Of a DNA stretch of 64,000 nucleotides, positions 1 to 27,211 are shown piece by piece. The stretch spans positions 22,475 through 86,474 of the forward strand of contig JAFMLE010000001.1 of NCBI GenBank assembly GCA_017852395.1. Direction: 5' to 3'. This DNA comes from Flavobacteriaceae bacterium. GTDB lineage: Bacteria > Bacteroidota > Bacteroidia > Flavobacteriales > Flavobacteriaceae. Made by a program: the position numbers and the translations under genes. Under the pieces are notes generated by a model. The model saw only the letters and a program-made list of their open reading frames with translations. It did not search any database and had not been told where the DNA came from. Position 1 is the first letter of the stretch. Every line of letters begins with the position of its first letter.

Positions 1-2
1 CA

Positions 3-479
3 CAACGCGTAAATGACAAAATCGATGCTGTAAAAGCTAAAGAGATGGCAGGAATGGCACTCACCGAAAATGAGAAAGCAAATTATAAAAATCTCAAGAA
101 TACTGCTCCCACGCGTATCGATGCGTTAAAAAGACTGCCAAAAGACTTGGTCCAAAAATTTGCTAACCAATGGAATAGCTATCTAGACTATTACGAAGAA
201 AACATTGGATATATCAAACCTGCAAAAAGTGCTTATCATTTTGAGTTTGATCGAGATGTGCAAGAATTGGGCATCGCAAACAACGATCCAAAACTACTGG
301 ACGTTTGTGTAGAAAAACTTCTGAAAAAGCAAGATGTTACACGAGCACAACGAATTTTAGAACGTTATACCACCCAAAAATTTGAGCACCCCAAAGACTG
401 GAAAAAATGGCTAGACAAAAACCGAGATCGATTGTTTTTTTCAGATACAGGCGGCTATAAATTTCGCATCAAACAATAA
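3..479 (+). CDS. C-terminal part of an unknown protein (5' end outside window)
   Basis: The reading frame is open to the left edge, so this is the 3' part of a longer gene; the ATG at 45 is probably internal. About 158 residues are visible, rich in Lys, Asp and Glu and apparently helical. They end in an aromatic-rich stretch (W-x-x-W, then LFFSDTGGYKF). I see no membrane segment or cofactor motif, and I do not recognise the family. The gene converges on polA with a 13-bp gap and no obvious terminator between them. Confidence 0.7.
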   Translation, partial: QRVNDKIDAVKAKEMAGMALTENEKANYKNLKNTAPTRIDALKRLPKDLVQKFANQWNSYLDYYEENIGYIKPAKSAYHFEFDRDVQELGIANNDPKLLDVCVEKLLKKQDVTRAQRILERYTTQKFEHPKDWKKWLDKNRDRLFFSDTGGYKFRIKQ

Positions 480-492
480 GAAAGTCGATGGA

Positions 493-3306
493 CTAATGGG
501 CTTCGAGCCAGTTTTGCCCCACACCAAGATCGACCACCAAAGGTACTGCCAAGGAAAAGGCGGTCTCCATCTCTTTTTTTACCATTGCTTGAAAGCCTTC
601 CAGTTCGGATTTGGGCACTTCAAAAACCAATTCATCATGAACTTGAAGTAGCATTTTGGCCTTCCACGATTCAGATTTTATTCGTGTATGAATCTTGATC
701 ATTGCCAACTTGATGATGTCAGCAGCACTACCTTGTATGGGTGCGTTTACCGCATTACGTTCTGCAGCACCTCGAACAACGGCATTTTGCGAAAGGATGT
801 CTTTAAGGTAGCGTCGTCGTCCCAAAACAGTCTCAACATAGCCCAATTCGCGCGCCAGATCAACTTGCTCATTGATGTATGCGCGCAGACGCGGGTAGCT
901 TGCATAATAGGTTTCTATGAGGTCTTTGGCTTCGCTTCGATTGAGATCGGTTTGTTGGCTTAGCCCAAAAGCGGAAACACCATAGATAATACCAAAATTG
1001 ACCGTCTTGGCGTTGCTTCGCTGTGCTCGACTTACGTCCTGTGGAGCGACCCCAAAAACCCGAGCTGCAGTTGCGGTATGGATGTCCTCTCCCTTTTGAA
1101 ATGCTTCTATTAAAGCCGGATCTTGACTCAAGGCAGCGATGATACGGAGTTCGATTTGCGAATAATCGGCAGCCAGCAATACATGGTCTTGATCTTTGGC
1201 AATAAACGCTTTACGCACTTCTTGTCCCCTTAGCGTACGTATGGGAATATTTTGCAAGTTGGGGTTGTTACTACTCAATCGACCTGTCGCAGCAACTGCC
1301 TGATTATAAACTGTGTGTACACGACCGGTTTGAGGGTTTATTTCTTGAGGCAGTGCAGTTACGTAGGTACTTTGAAGCTTTTGTAACGAACGCCATTCTA
1401 AAATATCGGCCACAATGGGATGGCCTTTTGCCAGATAAGACAATACATCTTCGGCAGTAGAGTATTGGCCTGTTTTTGTCTTTTTGGGTTTGTCAACCAG
1501 TTTGAGCTTTTCAAAGAGAATGGGTCCCAATTGTTTTGGTGAAGCCAGATTAAAAGTTTCTCCTGCTTGTTCATAAATCGATTTTTCTAAGCTATCAATA
1601 TCAGACTGCAATTGAATCGAAAGGGTATTTAGAAAAGGCGTATCTAGGCAAATCCCGGTAGCTTCCATGTCCGTAAGAACGGGCACCAACGGAAGTTCTA
1701 CTTTTTCAAAGAGTTCTTGGGTGCCGCCCGCAGCCAGTTCGTTTTCAAAATGCTGTTTGAGCTGCCAGGTAATGTCTGCGTCTTCAACGGCATATTCGGT
1801 TTGTTTGGCAACGGATACCTCGCGCATGGACCGTTGATTTTTTCCTTTTTTACCAATCAATTCGGTGATGGATTGCGGGCTATAATTCAAATAGGTTTCG
1901 GCCAAAATATCCATATTATGACGCATGTCCGGGTTGATCAAATAGTGCGCAATCATGGTATCATAGATGGGTGCTTTGACCTCGATACCATATTTGAGAA
2001 GCACTTTGATGTCGTATTTGAGGTTGTGTCCGATTTTTTCGATTTGATCACTTTCAAAAAAAGGTTTAAATCGGTTTGCCAAGGTACGTGCCGCTTCAAA
2101 GTCTTCCGGGAAAACGACATAGTATCCTTTGCCTTTTTCCCAAGAAAAGGCAATTCCAACCAAATGGGCTTCTAATGCATCCAGCCCGGTGGTTTCGGTG
2201 TCAAAACAGACACTTTTTTGAAGCAAAAGTTTTGCGATAAGCAGCTCTTGCGCTATTGGGGTGTCTACGCATTGATACCAATGTTTTTGCGTTGGGAGCG
2301 CTTTTTTATCCCCTTCTTGTTGGGTGCCTGCTCCCGGCTGATTGAAGAGGTCAAAGCCACCGGTTGGGAGTTCTTTTTTTATGGGGGCTTCTGAAGGGGT
2401 TGTTGAAGTTTCGGCAGCTTCGTCAGAGAAAATTTTATCAAAATTTTCTTTCATGCGTCTAAATTCGAGTTCTTCAAACAATTGACTTACTGCTTCGTTG
2501 TCTGGTTTGGACAGTTCGTAGGCAGATGCATCAAATGCAACGGGAACGTCTGTTATAATTCGGGCTAATTTTTTTGATAAAATACCGAGTGCTTTATGCG
2601 CTTCTATTTTTTCTTTTAGTTTTCCTTTGATTTGATCGGTATTTTCAAGCAGGGCCTCCATGCTGCCAAACTCTTTGATAAATTTTTTGGCAGTCTTGTC
2701 GCCTACTCCTGGTAGCCCAGGGATATTGTCAATGGCATCGCCCATCATCCCAAGATAATCGATGACTTGTTCGGGGCGTTCCACTTCAAATTTTTCTTGT
2801 ACTTCGGGGATGCCCCAGATTTCTATCCCATTACCCATTCGGGCAGGACGGTACATAAAAATATTTTCCGAAACCAGTTGAGCAAAGTCTTTATCGGGCG
2901 TAACCATAAAGGTCTTATAACCTTGTTTTTCGGCTTGTTTGGCAAGTGTTCCAATGATGTCGTCGGCTTCAAAACCCTCTTTGACCACCACAGGTATGTG
3001 CATGGCTTCGAGTAGTTTTTGAATATAAGGGACCGCAAGTGTTATGGCTTCTGGGGTTTCATCTCGATTGGCTTTGTAGTCCTCAAACATTTCTGTGCGT
3101 GTCGCCGAGCCTCCTTTGTCAAAGCATACAGCAAGATGATCGGGTCGCTCTCGCTTGATGACGTCCAAAAGTGAGTTCATAAAACCCATGATGGCCGAAG
3201 TATCCATGCCTTTCGAATTGATTCTTGGGTTTTTTATAAAAGCATAATAGCCTCTAAAAATCAACGCGTAGGCATCAAGTAGAAAAAGTCGTTTTTGGTC
3301 GGCCAT
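493..3306 (-). CDS. polA: DNA polymerase I
   Basis: This enzyme fills gaps and removes RNA primers during replication and repair. At 937 residues it is full length. The N-terminal 5'-nuclease domain covers roughly residues 1-290. The proofreading 3'-5' exonuclease domain follows, with an intact FDTETTG motif near residue 369, so proofreading is probably active. The polymerase domain fills the C-terminal part, with motif A (DYSQIELR) near 714 and motif C (VHDELVFE) near 888. The start ATG at 3306 gives a normal N-terminus (MADQKRLFLLDAYALIFRGYY). It lies 27 bp downstream of the dxs stop on the same strand, so the two may be co-transcribed. Confidence 0.97.
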   Translation of the reverse strand: MADQKRLFLLDAYALIFRGYYAFIKNPRINSKGMDTSAIMGFMNSLLDVIKRERPDHLAVCFDKGGSATRTEMFEDYKANRDETPEAITLAVPYIQKLLEAMHIPVVVKEGFEADDIIGTLAKQAEKQGYKTFMVTPDKDFAQLVSENIFMYRPARMGNGIEIWGIPEVQEKFEVERPEQVIDYLGMMGDAIDNIPGLPGVGDKTAKKFIKEFGSMEALLENTDQIKGKLKEKIEAHKALGILSKKLARIITDVPVAFDASAYELSKPDNEAVSQLFEELEFRRMKENFDKIFSDEAAETSTTPSEAPIKKELPTGGFDLFNQPGAGTQQEGDKKALPTQKHWYQCVDTPIAQELLIAKLLLQKSVCFDTETTGLDALEAHLVGIAFSWEKGKGYYVVFPEDFEAARTLANRFKPFFESDQIEKIGHNLKYDIKVLLKYGIEVKAPIYDTMIAHYLINPDMRHNMDILAETYLNYSPQSITELIGKKGKNQRSMREVSVAKQTEYAVEDADITWQLKQHFENELAAGGTQELFEKVELPLVPVLTDMEATGICLDTPFLNTLSIQLQSDIDSLEKSIYEQAGETFNLASPKQLGPILFEKLKLVDKPKKTKTGQYSTAEDVLSYLAKGHPIVADILEWRSLQKLQSTYVTALPQEINPQTGRVHTVYNQAVAATGRLSSNNPNLQNIPIRTLRGQEVRKAFIAKDQDHVLLAADYSQIELRIIAALSQDPALIEAFQKGEDIHTATAARVFGVAPQDVSRAQRSNAKTVNFGIIYGVSAFGLSQQTDLNRSEAKDLIETYYASYPRLRAYINEQVDLARELGYVETVLGRRRYLKDILSQNAVVRGAAERNAVNAPIQGSAADIIKLAMIKIHTRIKSESWKAKMLLQVHDELVFEVPKSELEGFQAMVKKEMETAFSLAVPLVVDLGVGQNWLEAH

Positions 3307-3332
3307 AAAAGTAGTATTTCGAGGTTTTATGA

Positions 3333-5090
3333 TTATGCAAGTAGTTCGTGTATTTTGGAAACGATTCGCTCGGGACTTACTCCTGCAATTTCGTGAATTT
3401 TTTCAAGTCTACCATGTGGTACAAAAGCATCTTCGATGCCCATAGTGTGAAGGGTACCCGTGTAGCCAGATTGGTGTGCAAACGCCAAAACACTTTCGCC
3501 AGCTCCTCCTGATATGGCGCCATCTTCGACCGTTATAATGATTTTAAACTGCTTAAAAAGCGTTTCTAAAAACAGGGTGTCTAAGGGTTTTATGAAACCC
3601 AAATCGGCATGTGCAACATCCAAATGATCAATCTGATCGAGGGCAGTTTCTACTGCTTGAGCGGTGCTGCCCACACTGATTATTAGCACATCCCTTCCTT
3701 TTTTGAGGAGTGTTCCTTTTCCGAATGCTACTTTTTCAAAAGGACGTTCCCAATCGCTTTGTTTCCCATAGCCGCGTGGATATCGAATCGCTAAGGGTTT
3801 GGAAATACCCAGTTGTGCCGTGTACAAAAGGTTGCGAAGTGCCACTTCATCCTTGGGAGCAGCAAAGATTAGATTTGGGATGGTTTTTAGAAACGGTATA
3901 TCAAAAACACCATGGTGTGTTGGGCCATCATGACCCACCAACCCTGCGCGGTCAATGCAAAGCACCACAGGCAATTGTTGAAGTGCAATGTCATGTATGA
4001 GCTGGTCGTAGGCCCGTTGTAAAAAAGTTGAGTAGAGGACACAAAAGGGGATGATTCCCTGGGTGGCCATACCAGCAGCAAGGGTTAGCGCGTGTTGTTC
4101 TGCAATGCCTACGTCAAAACTTCGCTGAGGAAATTTTTCAAAAAAAGGTGTTAGCCCGCTACCGGAAACCATGGCTGGTGTGATGGCGACAATTTTTTGA
4201 TTTTGTACGGCCAATTGGGTTAGCGTTTTTCCAAAAACGTCTTGATATTTGGTCAAATTTACGTCTGGAGTTTTATTGATTTTTCCGGTAGTTGGGTCAA
4301 ATTTGCCCGGTGCATGAAAACGAACTTGATCGTTTTCTGCCGATGGAAACCCTTTACCTTTAGTAGTCTTGATATGGAGGAGTTGGGGGCCATTTTTTTG
4401 AGCTAAATCCGTCAAGGTTGTTCTCAAAAGTTTTAAGTCATGGCCATCTATGGGACCCGAATAAGGGATATTAAGCGTCTGAAAAAGGTTGGTGTTGGGC
4501 TGTGTCTCGGTTTTAATTTTTTCAAAATAATTTTTCAAGGCGCCCACACTGGGATCTATGCCTATGGCGTTGTCATTGAGCACTACCAAAACATTGGCTT
4601 GGGTGGTTCCGAGGTGATTGAGTGCCTCAAAGGCCATGCCGCTGGCAATAGAGGCATCTCCGATGATCGCAATGTATTTGGTTTGTTGATCTCCTTGCAA
4701 TTGAGCAGCCAATGCCATACCCAAAGCTGCACCAATTGAGGTGCCTGCATGGCCCGTGCCAAAACGGTCATGCGGGCTTTCTGAGCGTGCCGGAAAACCA
4801 CTGATGCCCCCCCATTGTCGGTTGGATTCAAATTGAACGTTTCTGCCTGTGAGTATTTTATGGCCATAGGCTTGATGCCCAACATCCCATATCATTTGAT
4901 CGTTTGGACTGTCAAAGATGGCGTGTAGCATTACGGTGAGTTCTATGGTGCCTAAGCTAGCACCCAAGTGCCCTTCGTTTTTGGCGACCACATTGATGAT
5001 TCTTTGGCGTAATTCTGCACAAAGTTGCTCCAATGCGTCATCAGATAGTGCCTTTAAGTCTTTGGGCGATAAAATGGTATCGAGCAACAT
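3333..5090 (-). CDS. dxs: 1-deoxy-D-xylulose-5-phosphate synthase
   Basis: First step of the MEP isoprenoid pathway: thiamine-diphosphate-dependent condensation of pyruvate and glyceraldehyde 3-phosphate. The protein has about 585 residues with the transketolase-like three-domain order. Visible motifs are HQAYGHKILTGR in the N-terminal domain, the ThDP-binding region GDASIASGMAFEALNHLG, and FDVGIAEQHA plus DRAGLVGHDGPTHHG in the pyrimidine-binding domain. The frame is open further upstream, but the promoter at 5095-5123 places transcription just before the ATG at 5090, which gives the usual N-terminus (MLLDTILSPKDL). Its product feeds the prenyl and carotenoid genes at 14.6-16.8 kb. Confidence 0.96.
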   Translation of the reverse strand: MLLDTILSPKDLKALSDDALEQLCAELRQRIINVVAKNEGHLGASLGTIELTVMLHAIFDSPNDQMIWDVGHQAYGHKILTGRNVQFESNRQWGGISGFPARSESPHDRFGTGHAGTSIGAALGMALAAQLQGDQQTKYIAIIGDASIASGMAFEALNHLGTTQANVLVVLNDNAIGIDPSVGALKNYFEKIKTETQPNTNLFQTLNIPYSGPIDGHDLKLLRTTLTDLAQKNGPQLLHIKTTKGKGFPSAENDQVRFHAPGKFDPTTGKINKTPDVNLTKYQDVFGKTLTQLAVQNQKIVAITPAMVSGSGLTPFFEKFPQRSFDVGIAEQHALTLAAGMATQGIIPFCVLYSTFLQRAYDQLIHDIALQQLPVVLCIDRAGLVGHDGPTHHGVFDIPFLKTIPNLIFAAPKDEVALRNLLYTAQLGISKPLAIRYPRGYGKQSDWERPFEKVAFGKGTLLKKGRDVLIISVGSTAQAVETALDQIDHLDVAHADLGFIKPLDTLFLETLFKQFKIIITVEDGAISGGAGESVLAFAHQSGYTGTLHTMGIEDAFVPHGRLEKIHEIAGVSPERIVSKIHELLA

Positions 5091-16838: not shown

Positions 16839-17654
16839 ATGGAATCGATTATTACCTACTTTGAAAATTTGGACCCTATCTTGGGAGCGTTACTTGCCAC
16901 AACATTTACCTGGTTATTAACCGCACTGGGTGCTTCTTTTGTTTTTTTGTTTAAAGAAATGCGCCGTGCAGTACTGGATGGCATGTTGGGTTTTACCGGC
17001 GGTGTGATGGTTGCTGCAAGTTTTTGGAGCTTACTGGCCCCGGGTATAGAAATGAGCAAGGGCGAGGGCTTTATAAAAGTCATACCCGCTGCGGTAGGAT
17101 TTGCATTGGGCGCATTGTTTATTTTTGGCTTGGATAAAATTTTACCCCATATCCATATCAATTCTAAAGTCTCGGAGGGGATAAAAACACCTTGGCACAG
17201 AAGTACCCTTCTGGTCCTTGCGATTACACTGCATAACATCCCCGAAGGATTGGCAGTAGGGGTGCTTTTTGGAGGCGTTGCTGCGGGAATTCCAGAAGCA
17301 TCGATCACGGGCGCAGTTGTTTTGGCAATGGGTATTGGGATTCAAAATTTTCCTGAGGGGATTGCTGTCGCGATGCCCATGCGACGCCAAGGCGTAAGCC
17401 GGTTTAAGAGTTTTTGGTACGGTCAATTATCGGCCATTGTTGAGCCAATAGCAGGGGTGCTGGGTGCGGTTGCAGTTACTTTTTTTACGCCTCTTTTGCC
17501 ATACGCGCTTGCCTTTGCTGCTGGGGCAATGATTTTTGTGGTGGTAGAAGAAGTGATCCCCGAAACCCAACAAGACCGATATACCGATATTGCTACCTTG
17601 GGCTTTATTGGCGGTTTTATAGTGATGATGGTTTTGGACGTGGCCCTGGGCTAA
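16839..17654 (+). CDS. ZIP-family divalent metal transporter
   Basis: A 271-residue inner-membrane protein with about eight hydrophobic segments. The metal-binding signatures of ZIP transporters are clear: HNIPEGLAVGVLFGG in TM4 and NFPEGIAVAMPMRRQG in TM5, followed by SAIVEPIAGVLGA. The layout resembles ZupT/GufA-type transporters that import zinc, and often iron or manganese. The usual His-rich loop between TM3 and TM4 is short (HIHINSK). The gene is alone on its strand, divergent from crtY, and ends 2 bp from the thiL stop. Confidence 0.9.
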   Translation: MESIITYFENLDPILGALLATTFTWLLTALGASFVFLFKEMRRAVLDGMLGFTGGVMVAASFWSLLAPGIEMSKGEGFIKVIPAAVGFALGALFIFGLDKILPHIHINSKVSEGIKTPWHRSTLLVLAITLHNIPEGLAVGVLFGGVAAGIPEASITGAVVLAMGIGIQNFPEGIAVAMPMRRQGVSRFKSFWYGQLSAIVEPIAGVLGAVAVTFFTPLLPYALAFAAGAMIFVVVEEVIPETQQDRYTDIATLGFIGGFIVMMVLDVALG

Positions 17655-18782: not shown

Positions 18783-18790
18783 TAAATTTG
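18783..18790 (+). promoter_or_regulatory. -7 promoter box (TAAATTTG) of the MbnP/MbnH-like operon
   Basis: TAAATTTG matches TAnnTTTG and ends 6 nt before the ATG at 18797. A TTTG at 18754-18757 lies 25 nt upstream, slightly beyond the usual 17-23. This sets the start of the first gene at 18797 rather than at the in-frame ATG at 18755. Confidence 0.6.
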
Positions 18791-18796
18791 TATTCT

Positions 18797-20086
18797 ATGA
18801 GCAAATACTTTTCGATAGTTTTTGGAATACTTCTATTCATTTCGTGTTCAAAAAACAACCAAGATGAAATAGAAGACACAGATATCGATACCACATCAGG
18901 AACTGGAGGTACGGGTGGTGATACCACTTCTACCCCAAGCTTTTCGGTGGTAAATTGCACCGATGGTCAGGCCGATGGATATGCCTGCTTAGGCTATGAT
19001 TTGTTCGCCTACCTCCCCCTTTCTAATTTTGAAAGTTCATTTGGAAATGATATTTGGGGTTGGACCGATCCCGATACGAAAAAAGAATATGTGATTTTGG
19101 GCCTGGGAGATGGTACTGCCTTTATAGAGATTACCGACCCACTAAAACCGCTGTACCTCGGAAAATTGCCAACCGCTACTGTTGAAAGTGTTTGGAGGGA
19201 TGTCAAGGTGTATCAAAACCATGCTTTTATAGTCAGCGAAGCAAGCGGGCATGGTGTTCAAGTGTTTGATTTAACCCGCTTGCGGGGTGTGACCACCAAG
19301 CAAGCATTTCAAGCAGATACACGACTCACCGGACTTGGGAGTGCCCACAACATTGTAATTAACGAAGACACGGGGTTTGCTTATGTGGTAGGTGCAAAAA
19401 ACAACAATGGCAGTCCACTTGCCAATGGAGGTGCCATAATCATTGACATTAACACTCCAAAACAACCCCAAATAGTAGGCAATTATGCCGCATCACAATA
19501 CATACATGACGCTCAAGTGGTACGCTATCAAGGACCAGATACAGACTATAACGGAAGGGAAATTTTGTTTGCGTCGAGTAGCGACGGCAATTCGTATTCC
19601 AATCTTGTTATTGCAGATGTTACAGACAAACAAAACCCCATCCGAATTTTTCAAGGCTCCTATCCCTTTCCGGTTTATGCTCATCAAAATTGGCTAACTG
19701 AAGATCATCGGTATGTTTTATTAGGCGATGAAATTGACGAACAAACTCACGGCTATCCCACCCGAACAATGATCTTTGACATTCAAGATCTAGATGCCCC
19801 CGAACTCCACTTTGAATTTTTGGGAGAGACTTCTGCTATCGATCACAACGGCTACGTAAAAGGCAATCGTTTTTATTTGGCCAGCTATGCTGCTGGCATG
19901 CGTGTTTACGACCTGTCAGATATTGACAATAAGGTGATTACAGAAATCGGTTTTTTTGATACGTACAAAAATCACAACAATGCTTCTTTTGTAGGAGTGT
20001 GGAGTGTTTATCCTTATTTTGAAAGTGGTATTTTGGCAATTAGTGATTCTGACAATGGTCTTTTTCTTGTAAAAGAGTCCGAATAG
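18797..20086 (+). CDS. LVIVD-repeat / choice-of-anchor B family lipoprotein
   Basis: A 429-residue surface or periplasmic lipoprotein: signal MSKYFSIVFGILLFISCSK (lipobox ISC), then an acidic and Gly/Thr-rich linker (about residues 22-50). The rest is a series of beta repeats carrying the LVIVD-type pattern, for example GTAFIEITDPLKPLYLG, HGVQVFDLTRLRG, GGAIIIDINTPKQPQIVG, NLVIADVTDKQNPIRI and GMRVYDLSDIDNK. This predicts a beta-propeller. Family members are extracytoplasmic and mostly uncharacterised. It is the first of four genes that all encode lipoproteins; the next starts 7 bp downstream. A binding or scaffold role is inference. Confidence 0.85.
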   Translation: MSKYFSIVFGILLFISCSKNNQDEIEDTDIDTTSGTGGTGGDTTSTPSFSVVNCTDGQADGYACLGYDLFAYLPLSNFESSFGNDIWGWTDPDTKKEYVILGLGDGTAFIEITDPLKPLYLGKLPTATVESVWRDVKVYQNHAFIVSEASGHGVQVFDLTRLRGVTTKQAFQADTRLTGLGSAHNIVINEDTGFAYVVGAKNNNGSPLANGGAIIIDINTPKQPQIVGNYAASQYIHDAQVVRYQGPDTDYNGREILFASSSDGNSYSNLVIADVTDKQNPIRIFQGSYPFPVYAHQNWLTEDHRYVLLGDEIDEQTHGYPTRTMIFDIQDLDAPELHFEFLGETSAIDHNGYVKGNRFYLASYAAGMRVYDLSDIDNKVITEIGFFDTYKNHNNASFVGVWSVYPYFESGILAISDSDNGLFLVKESE

Positions 20087-20093
20087 ATTGGTT

Positions 20094-21413
20094 ATGAGAA
20101 GGGCAGTTTGGTTATCAATTGGATTGCTGGCTTTACAAACGCTAACGTTCTGTACCAAAAAAGAATGGAGCCTCCAAACCAAGAAAACACCTGCCCACAT
20201 CTTTAGTTTAGGAGGCACTCAAAATGAAGAAGCCAAAGCAGTAATTGCCACTGCCGATGGCGGATATCTTGTATTGGCCAACACCCAAAGTACGGATGGA
20301 GCTATTGAAGGAAAAAGCACCTCGGACTACGATCTTTGGCTACTAAAATTTGATCAAACCCATACACTGCTATGGCAAAAGACTATTGGGCATGCAGGCA
20401 ATGACAAAGGCAATAAAATAGTACCTGCCTCTGACGGAGGATTTCTTATTGCAGGCTCTACACAAGACCTCAGCCAAGGACAAAATAATACAACGCAAAT
20501 TTGGCTAATAAAAATTGATGCTCAAGCCAATCTTCTTTGGGAAAAAACGTATGGTTATCAAGGTATCGATACGGCCTATGACATAATCAAGACCAGCGAT
20601 GGAGGGTTTTTGATTAGCGGCATAATAGATGTAACTGCATCAAATGGTGCTGGCAATGTACAGGCAAAAACCCAAAAGCATGCGGGAGGCGACTTTTGGG
20701 TGCTGAAAGTAGACCCCATAGGAGACCTGCAATGGAGCCAATATTATGGCGGGACCTATACCGATACGGCTTACAGTGCAGTTCAAACACCTGATGGGGG
20801 ATATTTTATTTTGGGAACATCAGACAGTGAGGATGTTGATGTTTCAAAAAACAGAGGCACTTATGACCTTTGGTTGGTTCGTATAGACCGCCGCGGAACC
20901 TTACTTTGGGAGAAAAATTTTGGTGGCTCACAAATCGATGAAGGCGTAAAAATTTTGGCATTAGAAAATACAAACGTCCTCATCGCAGGAACAACAAGAA
21001 GTACCGATCAACTAATTGGTCAAAACAAAGGTGGAGCCGATGTTTGGATCGTGCAGATCGATTCTCAAGGCGATATAATTTGGGAAAAAACCTATGGAGG
21101 AAGCAGTTTTGACCTTACAACCAATTTACTTAAAACCCCCAACAACAATTTTATCATTACTGGGAACTCCAGAAGTGCCGATCAGGATCTCACCCAAAAT
21201 AACGGTTATAACGATGCTTGGGTTTTTCAAATCGATCCAAACGGAAAAATAGCTTGGCAATCAACTTTGGGAGGCTCCCAAATTGACACTGCAGTAGATG
21301 CCACCACCCTTAACAATGGCACTATAATTGTTGTTGGTAATAGCAATAGTGATCTTGACCCAGATCGTCCCAACCAAGGATTTACAGATGTTCTAATTTT
21401 TTCAATTCAATAA
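20094..21413 (+). CDS. repeat lipoprotein, probable seven-bladed beta-propeller
   Basis: A 439-residue lipoprotein (lipobox near LTFC, residue about 20) built from about seven copies of a repeat near 55 residues. Each copy reads roughly W-x-K-x-(Y/I)-G-G-x-x-x-D-x-A, then S-D-G-G-(F/Y)-x-I-x-G-x-T, then D-x-W-(L/V)-x-K-I-D. Examples are LLWEKTYGYQGIDTAYDI, LQWSQYYGGTYTDTAYSA and IIWEKTYGGSSFDLTTNL. The closing copy is shorter. Such repeats form propellers in exported Bacteroidota proteins; the function is unknown. The start is the ATG at 20094, 7 bp after the upstream stop, and the next gene follows after 3 bp. Confidence 0.8.
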   Translation: MRRAVWLSIGLLALQTLTFCTKKEWSLQTKKTPAHIFSLGGTQNEEAKAVIATADGGYLVLANTQSTDGAIEGKSTSDYDLWLLKFDQTHTLLWQKTIGHAGNDKGNKIVPASDGGFLIAGSTQDLSQGQNNTTQIWLIKIDAQANLLWEKTYGYQGIDTAYDIIKTSDGGFLISGIIDVTASNGAGNVQAKTQKHAGGDFWVLKVDPIGDLQWSQYYGGTYTDTAYSAVQTPDGGYFILGTSDSEDVDVSKNRGTYDLWLVRIDRRGTLLWEKNFGGSQIDEGVKILALENTNVLIAGTTRSTDQLIGQNKGGADVWIVQIDSQGDIIWEKTYGGSSFDLTTNLLKTPNNNFIITGNSRSADQDLTQNNGYNDAWVFQIDPNGKIAWQSTLGGSQIDTAVDATTLNNGTIIVVGNSNSDLDPDRPNQGFTDVLIFSIQ

Positions 21414-21416
21414 CCC

Positions 21417-22187
21417 ATGAAACTACTTATCTACCCACTAATTGTACTGCTGATTTTTGCTTCTTGTACCAAGGAGCAACCAAAAAAAGAAATTGTGCTC
21501 AAAGTAAAATTTGGCCATTTTTGGAATGACTTCGCGGTACACGAACAAGATTTAGAAAATACCACTTACGCTATAGATGAAAAATTTTACCTCAATTTTT
21601 CGCGTTTACGCTATCTAATTTCGGACCTTCAGTTGGAGTCAGAAGATGGTAGATTGCTCAATATAAACCACTATCATCTGGTCGATTTGTCTGACCTATC
21701 AACACTAACGATAACCATACCTCAATCTGTAGAAACCGGCAAATACAAGCACCTTCGTTTTCGATTGGGATTTGAGGACAGTGACAACACAGATGGCGAA
21801 TACAACGATCTCAATGCTACCTCGTGGAATGTGCCAGAACAGCTTGGAGGGGGCTATCATTTTATGCAATTGGACGGAAAATATGGCACCGATCCCGATG
21901 TGATTACCGATCCATTCAATTATCATTTCATAAGAGCGGTAGATGCAACAGATCCCGATAAATTGATATTAGAAGACACTTCTATTCCAATAGATTTGGG
22001 TGCTGTAGACCTTCAAAAAGATGTAACAATTCATATAGATATGAAGTTGGAACAATGGTTCAAAAATCCTGTAGACTGGGATTTGAATACATGGAACACG
22101 ACTTTAATGCCTAACTTTAATGCACAAAAAGCGATGCATCAAAACGGACAAAATGTTTTTGAGTTTTCACAAAACCTTCCCGACTAA
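21417..22187 (+). CDS. MbnP-like lipoprotein
   Basis: A 256-residue exported protein with lipobox FASC (Cys17). It matches the MbnP family (methanobactin-associated copper-binding protein and relatives) in order: early FGHFWN (33-37), RYLISDLQL (65-73), YHLVDLSD (86-93), RFRLGFEDSDNTDG, then a SWNVPEQLGGGYHFMQLDG block (136-154), FNYHF (167-171) and the closing MPNFNAQKAMHQNG. In characterised MbnP, the partner MbnH oxidises a tryptophan to kynurenine and this residue helps bind copper. Trp137 is the candidate here by position, which is inference. The gene overlaps the MbnH-like gene by 35 bp, so the two are very probably co-translated. Confidence 0.85.
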   Translation: MKLLIYPLIVLLIFASCTKEQPKKEIVLKVKFGHFWNDFAVHEQDLENTTYAIDEKFYLNFSRLRYLISDLQLESEDGRLLNINHYHLVDLSDLSTLTITIPQSVETGKYKHLRFRLGFEDSDNTDGEYNDLNATSWNVPEQLGGGYHFMQLDGKYGTDPDVITDPFNYHFIRAVDATDPDKLILEDTSIPIDLGAVDLQKDVTIHIDMKLEQWFKNPVDWDLNTWNTTLMPNFNAQKAMHQNGQNVFEFSQNLPD

Positions 22188-23247
22188 CCAATTTTACGGG
22201 CTATTGGTACTTTTTTTAGGGCTGTCTTGCAAAAAAGCACCTGATTTAGAGGCCTATACGCCTACACCCTACACCCTTGAAATTCCCAAGCTGTTTAAGG
22301 AAAAACTCATCGACCCCGTAATTCCCTTTGACAATCCGATGACCCAAGAAGCCATAGCCCTCGGAGAACAACTTTTTTTCGAAAAATTGCTCTCCGGAGA
22401 CCGAACCCAATCCTGTGCAAGCTGTCATCAGCCCCGCCGCGCTTTTGTCGATGAAACCCGTTTTAGTGATGGCATAGCTGGCACATTTGGAACACGCAAC
22501 GCCATGCCTTTATTCAATTTGGCATGGAACTATGACGAGCGGTTTGCTTGGGACGGTAAAGAACTTGGGCTTGAGCAACAAGCCTTTGAGCCCATCACCA
22601 ATCCAGATGAAATGCACGGCAGTTGGGAAGCAATCATCCGACGTCTAGAAGCGCATCCAGACTATCCGTCGCGCTTTGAAGCTGCTTTTGGAGACGACAA
22701 AATTGATTCGATTCGAATTGTAAAGGCCCTGGCTCAGTTTGAACGTACCTTGATTTCGGCAAACGCCAAATTTGATCAATTTTTAAACCAACAAGTGCAA
22801 TTGACTCCAGCAGAGCAAAATGGATTGGCCGTTTTTATGGATGAGGCCCGTGGCGATTGTTTTCATTGCCATGGTAGTCCCAATAACCCCCTTTGGACCG
22901 ACAATCAATTTCATAACAACGGGCTGGACACTTCTTTTTCTGATTTGGGGCTTGGAGGGGTTACCGGTCAGGCGAGTGATAATGGCAAATTTAGGACACC
23001 TTCACTGCGCAATTTGTCCTATACTGCACCCTATATGCATGATGGGCGCTTTGCAACACTAGAAGAAGTCATCGCACATTATAGCAATGGACTGCAACCG
23101 TCCTCTACTATCGATCCGTTAATGAAAAAGGTACAACAAGGAGGTGTTCAACTTTCTGAAGAAGACCAGGCCGATTTGATTGCTTTTCTAAAGACCCTTG
23201 ACGACCCCCAATTCATTAATAATTCCCGTTTTAACATCAATAATTAA
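22153..23247 (+). CDS. MbnH/MauG-like dihaem cytochrome c peroxidase-family lipoprotein
   Basis: A 364-residue exported dihaem protein. The lipobox is near LSCKK (Cys about 25). Two haem attachment sites are intact: C88-A-S-C91-H92 and C236-F-H-C239-H240. Other family features are FAWDGKELGLEQQAFEPI near residue 135, KFRTPSLRNLSYTAPYMHDGRF near 280, and LIAFLKTL near the end. The family covers peroxide-reducing CcpA and tryptophan-oxidising MauG/MbnH. Partnership with an MbnP-like gene favours the MbnH role. The start ATG at 22153 is chosen because it begins the hydrophobic signal; an earlier ATG at 22120 would add 11 polar residues. Confidence 0.85.
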   Translation: MFLSFHKTFPTNQFYGLLVLFLGLSCKKAPDLEAYTPTPYTLEIPKLFKEKLIDPVIPFDNPMTQEAIALGEQLFFEKLLSGDRTQSCASCHQPRRAFVDETRFSDGIAGTFGTRNAMPLFNLAWNYDERFAWDGKELGLEQQAFEPITNPDEMHGSWEAIIRRLEAHPDYPSRFEAAFGDDKIDSIRIVKALAQFERTLISANAKFDQFLNQQVQLTPAEQNGLAVFMDEARGDCFHCHGSPNNPLWTDNQFHNNGLDTSFSDLGLGGVTGQASDNGKFRTPSLRNLSYTAPYMHDGRFATLEEVIAHYSNGLQPSSTIDPLMKKVQQGGVQLSEEDQADLIAFLKTLDDPQFINNSRFNINN

Positions 23248-23306: not shown

Positions 23307-23314
23307 TATATTTG
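23307..23314 (+). promoter_or_regulatory. suf operon -7 promoter box (TATATTTG)
   Basis: TATATTTG is an exact TAnnTTTG match 29 nt before the sufA ATG at 23344. I do not find a TTG at the usual -33 distance. The leader is longer than for most genes here, which leaves space for regulation. I do not recognise an IscR-type site. Confidence 0.55.
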
Positions 23315-23343: not shown

Positions 23344-23673
23344 ATGATAAAAGTTGCTCCTACTGCTAAAGAAAAAGTTAGTGCCTTGATGCGTGAAGAA
23401 GGCTTTGACCCTGCGACAGCCCATGTACGTGTGGGTGTCAAAAGCGGGGGCTGTTCGGGACTTTCTTACGAGCTCAAATTTGATCAAGAAAGCAAACCCG
23501 ATGACCACCTTTATGAAGACAATGGTGTTCGGATTGTAGTTGACAAAAAGAGTCTGCTCTATTTGATCGGAACTACCTTAGAATATTCAGGAGGACTCAA
23601 CGGGAAAGGTTTTGTGTTCAACAACCCCAATGCCCAAAGAACTTGCGGCTGTGGAGAAAGTTTTTCACTCTAA
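23344..23673 (+). CDS. sufA: Fe-S cluster carrier/scaffold SufA (IscA/HesB family)
   Basis: A 109-residue A-type carrier that receives Fe-S clusters from SufBCD and passes them to target enzymes. The three conserved cysteines are present: Cys38 in SGGCSGLSY and the two of TCGCGESF near the C-terminus. Length is normal. It is the first gene of an eight-gene suf operon and is followed after 11 bp by sufB. Assignment to SufA rather than IscA rests on this context. Confidence 0.93.
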
Positions 23674-23684
23674 AAAATGGACCG

Positions 23685-25130
23685 ATGGCGTATACAGAAG
23701 AAGAATTAAAAAAAGAACTCGAAACTAAAGAATACGAATACGGATTTTATACCGATATCGATTCGGAAACGTTTGCCAAAGGGCTTAATGAAGATGTGAT
23801 CAAGCAGATTTCTGCGAAAAAAAAGGAACCCCAATGGATGACAGATTGGCGTCTAGAAGCCTATCGCGCATGGAAAGATATGATCGAACCCGAATGGGCC
23901 AATGTGCAATACGAAAAGCCCGATTTTCAGGACATCTCCTACTACTCTGCCCCAAAAAAGAAGGACAAATATGAAAGTCTCGACGAGGTAGATCCCGAAT
24001 TGATCGCTACATTCAACAAATTGGGGATATCCGTTGACGAGCAAAAGAAATTGACCGGCGTGGCCGTGGACATCGTTATGGATTCTGTTTCGGTGGCAAC
24101 AACTTTTAAAGAAACGCTTGCCGAAAAGGGCATCATCTTTTGCCCCATTTCTGAAGCGATACAAGAACACCCCGAATTGGTTAGAAAATACCTCGGAACG
24201 GTCGTGCCGCCCAAAGATAACTTTTATGCAGCCCTAAACTCGGCGGTATTTTCAGACGGTTCATTTTGCTACATCCCCAAAGGCGTTAAGTGCCCGATGG
24301 AATTGTCAACCTACTTTAGGATCAATCAGGCCGGGACAGGACAATTTGAGCGTACCTTAGTCATTGCCGACGAAAGCAGCTATGTCAGCTATCTTGAAGG
24401 ATGCACAGCACCCTCACGCGATGAAAACCAATTGCACGCAGCGGTGGTAGAGCTTATTGCTTTGGACCATGCAGAGATCAAATATTCGACCGTTCAAAAT
24501 TGGTTTCCTGGAAACAAAGAGGGTAAGGGAGGCGTATATAATTTTGTAACCAAAAGAGGAATTTGCCACAAGCGCTCCAAAATCTCATGGACACAAGTAG
24601 AAACAGGTTCTGCCGTCACTTGGAAATACCCCTCATGTATTTTAAAAGGCGATCATTCTATCGGAGAATTTTATTCCATTGCAGTAACCAATAATTTTCA
24701 ACAAGCGGACACAGGAACAAAAATGGTTCACTTGGGCAAAAACACCCGAAGTACAATCATCTCCAAAGGTATATCAGCAGGAAAATCACAAAACAGCTAT
24801 CGGGGACTGGTTCAAATCAATGCACGTGCCAAAAATGCACGAAATTTTTCGCAATGCGACTCGCTGTTGATGGGCAATGAATGCGGGGCACACACCTTTC
24901 CGTATATAGAGGCCAAAAACAATACAGCACAAATCGAACACGAAGCAACGACCAGCAAAATCGGTGAAGATCAAATATTTTATTGCAATCAACGAGGTAT
25001 TGACACCGAAAAGGCGATCGCGTTGATTGTCAATGGATTTAGTAAAGAAGTATTGAATAAGCTCCCAATGGAATTTGCCATAGAAGCTCAAAAATTATTA
25101 GAAATTTCCCTCGAAGGATCTGTAGGGTAA
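23685..25130 (+). CDS. sufB: Fe-S cluster assembly scaffold SufB
   Basis: A 481-residue scaffold component that assembles Fe-S clusters with SufC and SufD in the cytoplasm. The family blocks [65 protein letters not shown] and [23 protein letters not shown] are present. The conserved late Cys in [23 protein letters not shown] is visible. The true start is the ATG at 23685 ([12 protein letters not shown]); an upstream in-frame start lies inside sufA. Confidence 0.96.
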
Positions 25131-25141
25131 ATCATAAAGCT

Positions 25142-25894
25142 ATGTTGACGATTGAAAATTTACACGCTCAAGTAGAGGGCAAAAAAATATTAAAAGGGAT
25201 TGATCTAGACATCAAACCAGGCGAGGTTCATGCTATAATGGGACCCAACGGTTCCGGCAAGAGCACCTTATCATCGGTGATCGCCGGCAATGAAGATTTT
25301 GAGACCACAGCAGGGACCATCTTACTCAGGGGAGAAGACCTTACTGAACTTAGCCCCGAAGAACGCGCCCATAAAGGCATTTTCCTTTCGTTTCAATATC
25401 CTGTAGAAATCCCTGGAGTATCCGTAACCAATTTTATCAAAACAGCCATCAATGCAAATCGAAAAGCAAAAGGGCAAGAAGATATGCCAAGTAACGAGAT
25501 GCTCAAAAAAATTCGGGAGAAAGCAAAACTACTCGAAATAGATTCTAAATTTTTATCGCGTTCGCTCAACGAAGGATTTTCTGGTGGAGAAAAAAAGCGA
25601 AACGAAATTTTCCAAATGGCCATGCTCGAACCCCAATTGGCCATACTTGATGAAACCGACTCAGGACTCGATATCGATGCACTCAAAATTGTGGCCAATG
25701 GCGTCAACAAACTTCGTAGCAAAGACAATGCGATTGTCGTAATTACCCATTATCAAAGGCTATTGGACTACATCGTGCCCGATTTTGTTCACGTCCTTTA
25801 TGATGGCAAAATTGTTAAATCCGGAACCAAAGAATTGGCCCAAGAACTGGAAGCCAAAGGATACGATTGGATCAAACAAGAAATGGTAGAATAG
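25142..25894 (+). CDS. sufC: Fe-S assembly ATPase SufC
   Basis: A 250-residue ABC-type ATPase that drives conformational change in the SufBCD scaffold. Walker A is GPNGSGKST (about residues 34-42), the signature is [16 protein letters not shown] near 143-158, and Walker B is [14 protein letters not shown]. SufC is a soluble ABC protein rather than a transporter. The [11 protein letters not shown] signature is typical of SufC and separates it from transport ATPases. It is followed directly by sufD with no gap. Confidence 0.97.
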
Positions 25895-27211
25895 ATGGAA
25901 CTCAAAGACAAACTTTTAGATTCGTTCATTGCATTTGAAGAAGACTTTGTCTTAGACGAAGAATTGCATCAAAAAAGAATCGATGCCCTAAAAATATTTG
26001 AATCAAAAGGGTTTCCTACCAAAAAATTAGAGGGTTGGAAATACACCTCACTTGAGCGCCTTTTGAAAAAAGATTACATCTTGTTTTCTAAAAGCGATAA
26101 TTATATCGACCTCAAAGACGTAAAAAAATATTTTTTATACGATGTAGACACCTACAAAATTGTGTTTATTGATGGGGTCTATAGTCCCTTTTTATCCGAT
26201 ACCACACATGATGGAATCGATGCCTGTTTGATGTCTGCCGCGCTCACCAAGCCCAAGTACCGCAAATTGGTTGATACCTATTTTAACAAAATTGCCGATG
26301 GTCAAGACAGTATGACCGCTCTCAATACATCGTTTACCAAAGAGGGGGCATATATCTATATCCCCAAAAATACCGTAGCCCAAAAACCCATAGAAATCGT
26401 ACATTTTGCAACGGGCAACGAACACGCCCTTTGGCTACAACCCAGAAATCTGATAGTTGTAGACCAAAACGCCCAAGTACAGATCATAGAGCGTCATCAA
26501 AGTCTCAAACCCCATGAGTTGGTCACCAACAGTGTTACTGAAATTTATGCGCATAAGGAAGCCTATGTGGATTATTACAAACTGCAAAATGACCTCGACA
26601 CTGCATCGCTGATTGACAACACCTACATCGCTCAAGAAAAACAAAGCAATGTCAGTGTTCATACGTTTTCTTTTGGAGGTAAATTAATCCGTAACAACCT
26701 CAATTTTTACCATCGTGGCGAGCACCTCAATTCGACCCTCAAAGGGATTACCATACTTCAGGCGCAGCAACATGTCGATCACTATACCTTAGTCCACCAT
26801 GCCCATCCCAATTGTGAAAGTCATCAAGACTACAAAGGGGTTTTTAGCGATCGTTCTACAGGGGTTTTTAACGGAAAAATTTTGGTGGATAAAATTGCGC
26901 AAAAAACAAACGCTTTTCAACAAAACAACAACATATTGCTGGACGACAAAACAACCGTAAACACCAAGCCACAGCTAGAAATCTTTGCCGATGATGTCAA
27001 ATGTTCTCACGGTTGTACCATTGGTCAGCTTGACGAAGAAGCACTTTTTTATTTAAAGACACGAGGCATTCCTCATAAAGAAGCCAAGGCCCTTTTGACC
27101 TACGCTTTTGCTAACAATGTACTAGAAAGCGTGCAGCTACCTGCACTTAAAAAACGCATCAACCATCTGATTGCTTCAAAACTTGGTGTTAATTTAGGTT
27201 TTGACTTATAA
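25895..27211 (+). CDS. sufD: Fe-S assembly scaffold SufD
   Basis: A 438-residue SufD, the paralogue of SufB in the SufBCD complex. Family blocks are KTKKLEGWKYTS-like text near residue 40 (KKLEGWKYTSLERLL), NFYHRGEHLNSTLKGIT near 270, GVFSDRSTGVFNGKILV, the conserved KTNAFQQNNNILLDDKT, and DDVKCSHGCTIGQLDEEALFYLKTRGI near the C-terminus. The start codon follows the sufC stop directly, suggesting matched translation of the two. Confidence 0.96.
   Translation: MELKDKLLDSFIAFEEDFVLDEELHQKRIDALKIFESKGFPTKKLEGWKYTSLERLLKKDYILFSKSDNYIDLKDVKKYFLYDVDTYKIVFIDGVYSPFLSDTTHDGIDACLMSAALTKPKYRKLVDTYFNKIADGQDSMTALNTSFTKEGAYIYIPKNTVAQKPIEIVHFATGNEHALWLQPRNLIVVDQNAQVQIIERHQSLKPHELVTNSVTEIYAHKEAYVDYYKLQNDLDTASLIDNTYIAQEKQSNVSVHTFSFGGKLIRNNLNFYHRGEHLNSTLKGITILQAQQHVDHYTLVHHAHPNCESHQDYKGVFSDRSTGVFNGKILVDKIAQKTNAFQQNNNILLDDKTTVNTKPQLEIFADDVKCSHGCTIGQLDEEALFYLKTRGIPHKEAKALLTYAFANNVLESVQLPALKKRINHLIASKLGVNLGFDL

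Follow-up and report, generated by a model that had tools for sequence, protein, structure and literature searches.

In the reaction described for MbnH, this diheme enzyme oxidizes one tryptophan of its partner protein MbnP; the residue concerned is reportedly the first Trp of a WxW motif, and the NCBIfam family name MbnP_like_WxW agrees with this. Enzymes carrying the MauG-type Tyr store two oxidizing equivalents and oxidize a partner protein over a distance. Here, a four-gene operon was analyzed in a 64,000-nucleotide stretch of the genome of a Flavobacteriaceae bacterium (contig JAFMLE010000001.1; this whole stretch is called the window below). The operon, whose genes and products are designated A (choice-of-anchor B propeller), B (SBBP-type propeller), C (MbnP fold), and D (MbnH/MauG-type diheme enzyme), is an MbnP/MbnH-type system that includes two propeller proteins and has lost the signature motif. 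We consider the chances about even that it represents a conserved surface metal-handling module of the Flavobacteriaceae, most likely for copper, and each chemical step proposed for it is held with less confidence than the module itself. The features concerned are as follows (window coordinates).

18783 to 18790, plus strand: predicted −7 promoter box of the Bacteroidota type (TAAATTTG; consensus TAnnTTTG), 5' of gene A, found by pattern scan
18797 to 20086, plus strand: gene A, choice-of-anchor B lipoprotein and predicted seven-bladed propeller (TIGR04312, 484 bits; propeller fold matches of a model with a predicted local distance difference test score [pLDDT] of 87)
19346 to 19846, plus strand: region containing the codons for the four invariant His of A, approximately one His per blade (H184, 19346 to 19348; H237, 19505 to 19507; H296, 19682 to 19684; H350, 19844 to 19846)
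20094 to 21413, plus strand: gene B, seven-repeat propeller lipoprotein of the SBBP/delta-60 type (weak NF047494 and TIGR02608 matches; CylK propeller match in the PDB)
21417 to 22187, plus strand: gene C, MbnP-fold lipoprotein (PF20243, 90 bits; 7L6G, Z score 14.4)
21825 to 21833, plus strand: W137-N-V139 of C, the place of the missing WxW motif (alignment of 127 loci)
21858 to 21860, plus strand: H148 of C, proposed metal ligand (kept in 126 of 127 loci)
21924 to 21926, plus strand: H170 of C, proposed metal ligand corresponding to the HxGS His of MbnP (127 of 127)
22077 to 22079, plus strand: W221 of C, the sole Trp present in all homologs of window-type C (127 of 127)
22153 to 23247, plus strand: gene D, MbnH/MauG-type diheme lipoprotein (PF03150, 192 bits; TIGR04039, 267 bits; MbnH 6E1C, E value of 4e-53)
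22414 to 22428 and 22858 to 22872, plus strand: CxxCH motifs of D (invariant)
23080 to 23082, plus strand: Y310 of D (invariant)
23307 to 23314, plus strand: predicted TAnnTTTG promoter box 5' of sufA, found by pattern scan

All four genes are encoded on the plus strand, with gaps of 7 bp between A and B and 3 bp between B and C and an overlap of 35 bp between C and D, and both coordinates and open reading frames agree in this with the preliminary description of the locus. Each product has a lipobox Cys after an N-terminal signal (C17 in A, C20 in B, C17 in C, and C26 in D), and the designation of the operon as all-lipoprotein was thus correct for this genome. Across the family it does not hold, since A is often of the type IX secretion system (T9SS) type and may be present in two to four tandem copies.

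A total of 299 Flavobacteriaceae genomes were searched with C, and relatives were found in 109 of them, approximately 90 being close (E value below 1e-36). Gene neighborhoods were compared for 60 loci from this survey and for 80 named loci of GTDB genomes (487 C relatives were found in all, in genera such as Polaribacter, Tenacibaculum, Winogradskyella, Formosa, Lacinutrix, and Tamlana), and the removal of duplicates left 127 distinct Flavobacteriaceae loci with window-type C, which are the basis of the C residue and gene-order counts given here. The comparisons of A comprised 80 operon A proteins and 32 A homologs from elsewhere, and the alignments of B and D comprised 58 and 122 sequences, respectively. 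The source genome, which is 86% complete, contains a single MbnP, a single CCP_MauG protein, and a single A.

A and B adjoin C in 126 of the 127 loci, so the absence of conserved linkage that the preliminary description would have counted against its proposal does not apply, and the search across genomes that it suggested speaks for the linkage of the propellers to an MbnP/MbnH-type pair. D adjoins C in 122 loci, in the same order, and in four of the remaining five it is present elsewhere in the genome. Almost all loci thus show the order A-B-C-D, in which A may be single or repeated in tandem up to four times. This four-gene arrangement is far beyond chance. In the loci L175, L188, L190, and L196, the break lies between C and D, and D is retained elsewhere in the genome, beside sufA. 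The sole real loss of the module was found in one genome represented twice (L050 and L193), from which A, B, and D are gone and a lone C is left between thiL and sufA; in another genome (G174, locus L303), a lone A stands beside thiL. Tandem A copies (two to four) upstream of B were observed in L053, L061, L068, L073, L077, L081, and L083 to L091, with lipid-anchored and T9SS-type copies often mixed.

The propeller link extends beyond window-type C, as A and B precede a WxW-type MbnP in L090 and L091. Counting against a general propeller link, A homologs in other families of the class are mostly apart from C and D, and the C-D pair occurs there without adjoining A and B and distant from suf. 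In another phylum, a plasmid of Pseudoalteromonas xiamenensis (L271, positions 1 to 4580) carries an MbnP-MbnH pair with a choice-of-anchor B gene beside it in divergent orientation, and this was the sole A match among 72,556 plasmid records. No description of the four-gene operon was found in the open-access literature on MbnP/MbnH, choice-of-anchor B, and LVIVD proteins; the locus, earlier put forward as an undescribed system, is real and strongly conserved.

In nearly all Flavobacteriaceae loci, the module is flanked by thiL (divergent) on one side and by sufA-sufB directly downstream on the other, the suf iron-sulfur (Fe-S) assembly genes occupying positions 23344 to 27211 of the window. 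Judging by the separate TAnnTTTG box at 23307, suf is probably transcribed on its own. Considering this box, the median distance of 107 bp between D and sufA, and the lack of such a link in other families, the suf neighborhood is read as an inherited position rather than as a functional tie, although a connection by way of peroxide or Fe-S clusters may exist. Beyond thiL, a ZIP-family metal transporter gene (PF02535) is located at positions 16839 to 17654 of the window, approximately 1.1 kb from the start of A.

The assignment of C as an MbnP-like protein was confirmed by its match to PF20243 (MbnP; 90.4 bits, with a gathering cutoff of 27) and by its fold. With an AlphaFold model of pLDDT 85.5, the best fold match in the PDB was MbnP of Methylosinus trichosporium (7L6G; Z score of 14.4 over 212 residues, root mean square deviation of 4.0), while the second-best match reached a Z score of 4.9. 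None of the PDB sequence searches, whether run with C, a C profile, or a relative of the WxW type, detected MbnP, MopE, or CorA, and the relationship of C to MbnP was detected by fold comparison alone; MopE and CorA were also absent among the fold matches listed for C, a listing that leaves them possible. TIGR04052 (MbnP_like_WxW), the model of the copper-binding family, against which a methanotroph MbnP scores 291 bits, did not match C at an E value of ≤0.001. In MbnP of Methylocystis, Trichormus, Pseudoalteromonas, and many Bacteroidota, WxW is followed by G, mostly as M-x-W-x-W, with H-x-G later in the sequence, and the window C reads W137-N-V139-P, then LGGGYH148, with H170 further on. The one replacement of H148, by Tyr, occurs in the orphan C (L050/L193) that has lost A, B, and D, a single case that would agree with H148 functioning in the complex.

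D, previously described as a diheme MbnH/MauG-like protein, was upheld as such and forms a conserved pair with C. It belongs to PF03150, and its best NCBIfam match is TIGR04039 (MbnH) at 266.7 bits, below the equivalog cutoff of 362.85. Two CxxCH motifs, W133, M295, H296, and Y310 are invariant in the 122 D sequences, and Y310 aligns with the Tyr of MbnH and MauG at a position where cytochrome c peroxidase has Met, so that D carries the signature of the MbnH/MauG class (two CxxCH motifs plus Tyr for the peroxidase Met). By analogy with MauG, D may store oxidizing equivalents and act on a partner. An expansion of MauG-like diheme proteins, with 12 D matches, was observed in one Bacteroidia genome (G557). 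In several plasmid records (L269, 2989 to 4149; L272, 2866 to 4017; and others), MbnH-like diheme genes bear the label "methanobactin export MATE transporter MbnM," apparently a misannotation.

A matched TIGR04312 (choice-of-anchor B) far above its curated cutoff of 100 bits. Its best Foldseek match was a metal-dependent phosphotriesterase of Sphingobium sp. TCM1 (5HRM), which was also its best profile match, although a weak one (E value of 0.007), in which H184 of A is aligned with a His of the enzyme. Many WD40 propellers tie with 5HRM by Z score in the fold comparison, and the fold of A is therefore of little informative value by itself. The four-His sites of SBP56/methanethiol oxidase and of carotenoid-oxygenase-like proteins, which come into consideration for A, were absent among the fold matches listed. 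The four His of A (H184, H237, H296, and H350) are invariant in 79 to 80 of the 80 operon A proteins and in 32 of 32 other A homologs and are spaced by 51 to 59 residues; together with W87, W133, and W402, they follow one another at intervals of approximately one blade (46 to 59 residues). This pattern is stronger evidence than the fold and suggests that one His from each of four neighboring blades could contribute to a metal site. Beside them stand the invariant Trp residues W87, W89, W133, W299, and W402. For B, none of the family matches was above its cutoff.

Regarding the location of these proteins, 44 of the 80 A proteins have a lipobox Cys and 35 a C-terminal extension, none having both and one having neither; all five extended copies that were checked have T9SS type A sorting domains. 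Since T9SS exports to the surface or the medium, A most likely works outside the cell, at its surface. The lipobox Cys is kept in every aligned homolog of B, C, and D, and in homologs of all four proteins it is followed by acidic residues, which we take to resemble the surface-export signals of other Bacteroidota.

According to the preliminary description, D would oxidize Trp137 of C to kynurenine and so complete an MbnP-like copper site, with the propellers as scaffold, which we now regard as unlikely. The proposal draws on the MbnP fold of C and the MbnH type of D, and 82 of the 127 loci have Trp137, as does the window C. Against it, position 137 is Phe in 44 loci (the last one having a gap), none of these 44 proteins has any Trp in residues 118 to 165, and all of their genomes retain D, either adjoining C or at another site; moreover, the W/F state switched at least five times on a tree of B plus D. 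As Phe thus replaces Trp137 in about one-third of the loci while D is kept, conversion of Trp137 to kynurenine is not the general function. The WxW motif is lost as well, position 139 being Val in 120 loci and Trp, which gives WxW, in 7, and the reaction could still apply to the W-type members only. The equivalence of Trp137 with the oxidized Trp of MbnP depends on the alignment register: direct profile alignment pairs Trp137 with the first Trp of WxW, whereas a stepwise alignment using MxWP-type sequences of other Bacteroidia as intermediates places V139 there and Trp137 on the preceding Met. Coupling of the change from Trp137 to Phe with loss of D was considered and rejected, as the four F-type loci without an adjoining D keep it elsewhere beside suf. 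No position of D clearly separates F-type from W-type partners in the alignment of 122 sequences.

If no residue is modified, D might instead be a surface peroxidase removing peroxide, perhaps shielding the adjoining Fe-S assembly, with C as electron donor or docking protein. Its PF03150 membership is consistent with this, as are the fixed site before sufA-sufB in nearly all loci and the retention of D with suf after C/D rearrangement; however, D has Tyr where peroxidases have Met and, as a lipoprotein, is located outside the cytoplasm, a separate promoter box precedes suf, and the C-D pairs of other families are not near suf. We regard this reading as distinctly improbable. The target of D could also lie in propeller A, near its four-His center, with C delivering the metal or acting as an adaptor. 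The invariant Trp residues beside the four His point in this direction, as do the dispensability of the proposed target Trp of C and the linkage of A to MbnP/MbnH in two MbnP types and its position next to the pair in Pseudoalteromonas. We nevertheless hold this reading to be very unlikely, considering that A proteins with no adjoining D also conserve the four His and the majority of these Trp and that other Bacteroidia have C and D without A alongside.

The reading that we prefer is a surface metal-handling module in which the canonical use of D, conversion of a WxW Trp to kynurenine, would have been remodeled and the target of D moved or lost. With WxW absent and Trp137 dispensable, D would have to act on another residue or directly on a metal site. 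D would take oxidizing equivalents from peroxide and draw electrons from its partner, chemistry that is known for the class; the residue of C or A that it matures or oxidizes would not be Trp137, and among the Trp residues W221 is the best candidate. The metal site of C would be formed by H148 and H170. In CorA, the copper site has two His as first-sphere ligands, with the kynurenine nitrogen 2.9 Å away, in a W-x-H arrangement (Kyn62 and H64) (PMC3912023); thus, a two-His site could work without kynurenine. The four-His site of A would probably bind a second metal or exchange metal with C, B would serve as a propeller scaffold, and the products of the four genes may form a complex. A more specific version, in which retargeted D oxidizes another residue (W221 of C or one near the four-His center of A) and thereby creates a new surface metal center shared by C and A, is possible, but we put it forward tentatively and would not expect it to hold in all its parts. 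By analogy with MbnP and CorA, the metal is probably copper.

Several points weigh against this interpretation. The neighbors of the operon are thiL, suf, and, further off, the ZIP transporter, with no copper genes found among them, and the metal, be it copper or any other, is assigned by analogy. The change of H148 to Tyr in the orphan C is one case only, and the loop of residues 137 to 145 of C, which would be expected to hold the site, is poorly predicted in the model. Furthermore, the four His of A are also kept outside the operon and are therefore no proof of a link to C.

The natural variation of C makes the target of D testable, as approximately one-third of its homologs have Phe for the site Trp through several independent changes while D is kept, providing natural pairs. 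D also raises the question of whether other members of the large MbnH enzyme family do something besides Trp oxidation. In addition, the widespread and uncharacterized choice-of-anchor B proteins gain a candidate function, a putative four-His metal site at the cell surface. Among the close C relatives are those of Polaribacter, Tenacibaculum, Winogradskyella, and Formosa, common marine genera about whose surface metal handling little is known.

Among described proteins, the Sphingobium TCM1 phosphotriesterase (5HRM) has weak LVIVD-like sequence similarity to A, with approximately 13 to 16% identity; the title of the paper on this enzyme, as given in the reference list of PMC11656708, refers to a binuclear metal centre in a seven-bladed propeller. 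MauG is, like D, a diheme enzyme with Tyr at the same position, but its identity to D is 35%, and its substrate, methylamine dehydrogenase, is not encoded in the window operon. MopE/SACCP and CorA/CorB of methanotrophs resemble the operon in combining a surface copper protein with a diheme partner. C differs from CorA in having no sequence match to it and W-N-V in place of W-x-H, the nearest downstream His (H148) being 11 residues on. Compared with MbnP/MbnH (TIGR04052/TIGR04039; 7L6G and 6E1C), the window C has GGGYH and neither WxW nor HxGS, D scores below the TIGR04039 cutoff, and the operon includes two propeller genes and has suf, not TonB receptor or methanobactin genes, as its neighbor; MbnB had no match in the 86% complete source genome, in a search run without a positive control. 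What the operon shares with MbnP/MbnH is the gene pair and its order, the MbnP fold of C, and the Tyr and CxxCH motifs of D.

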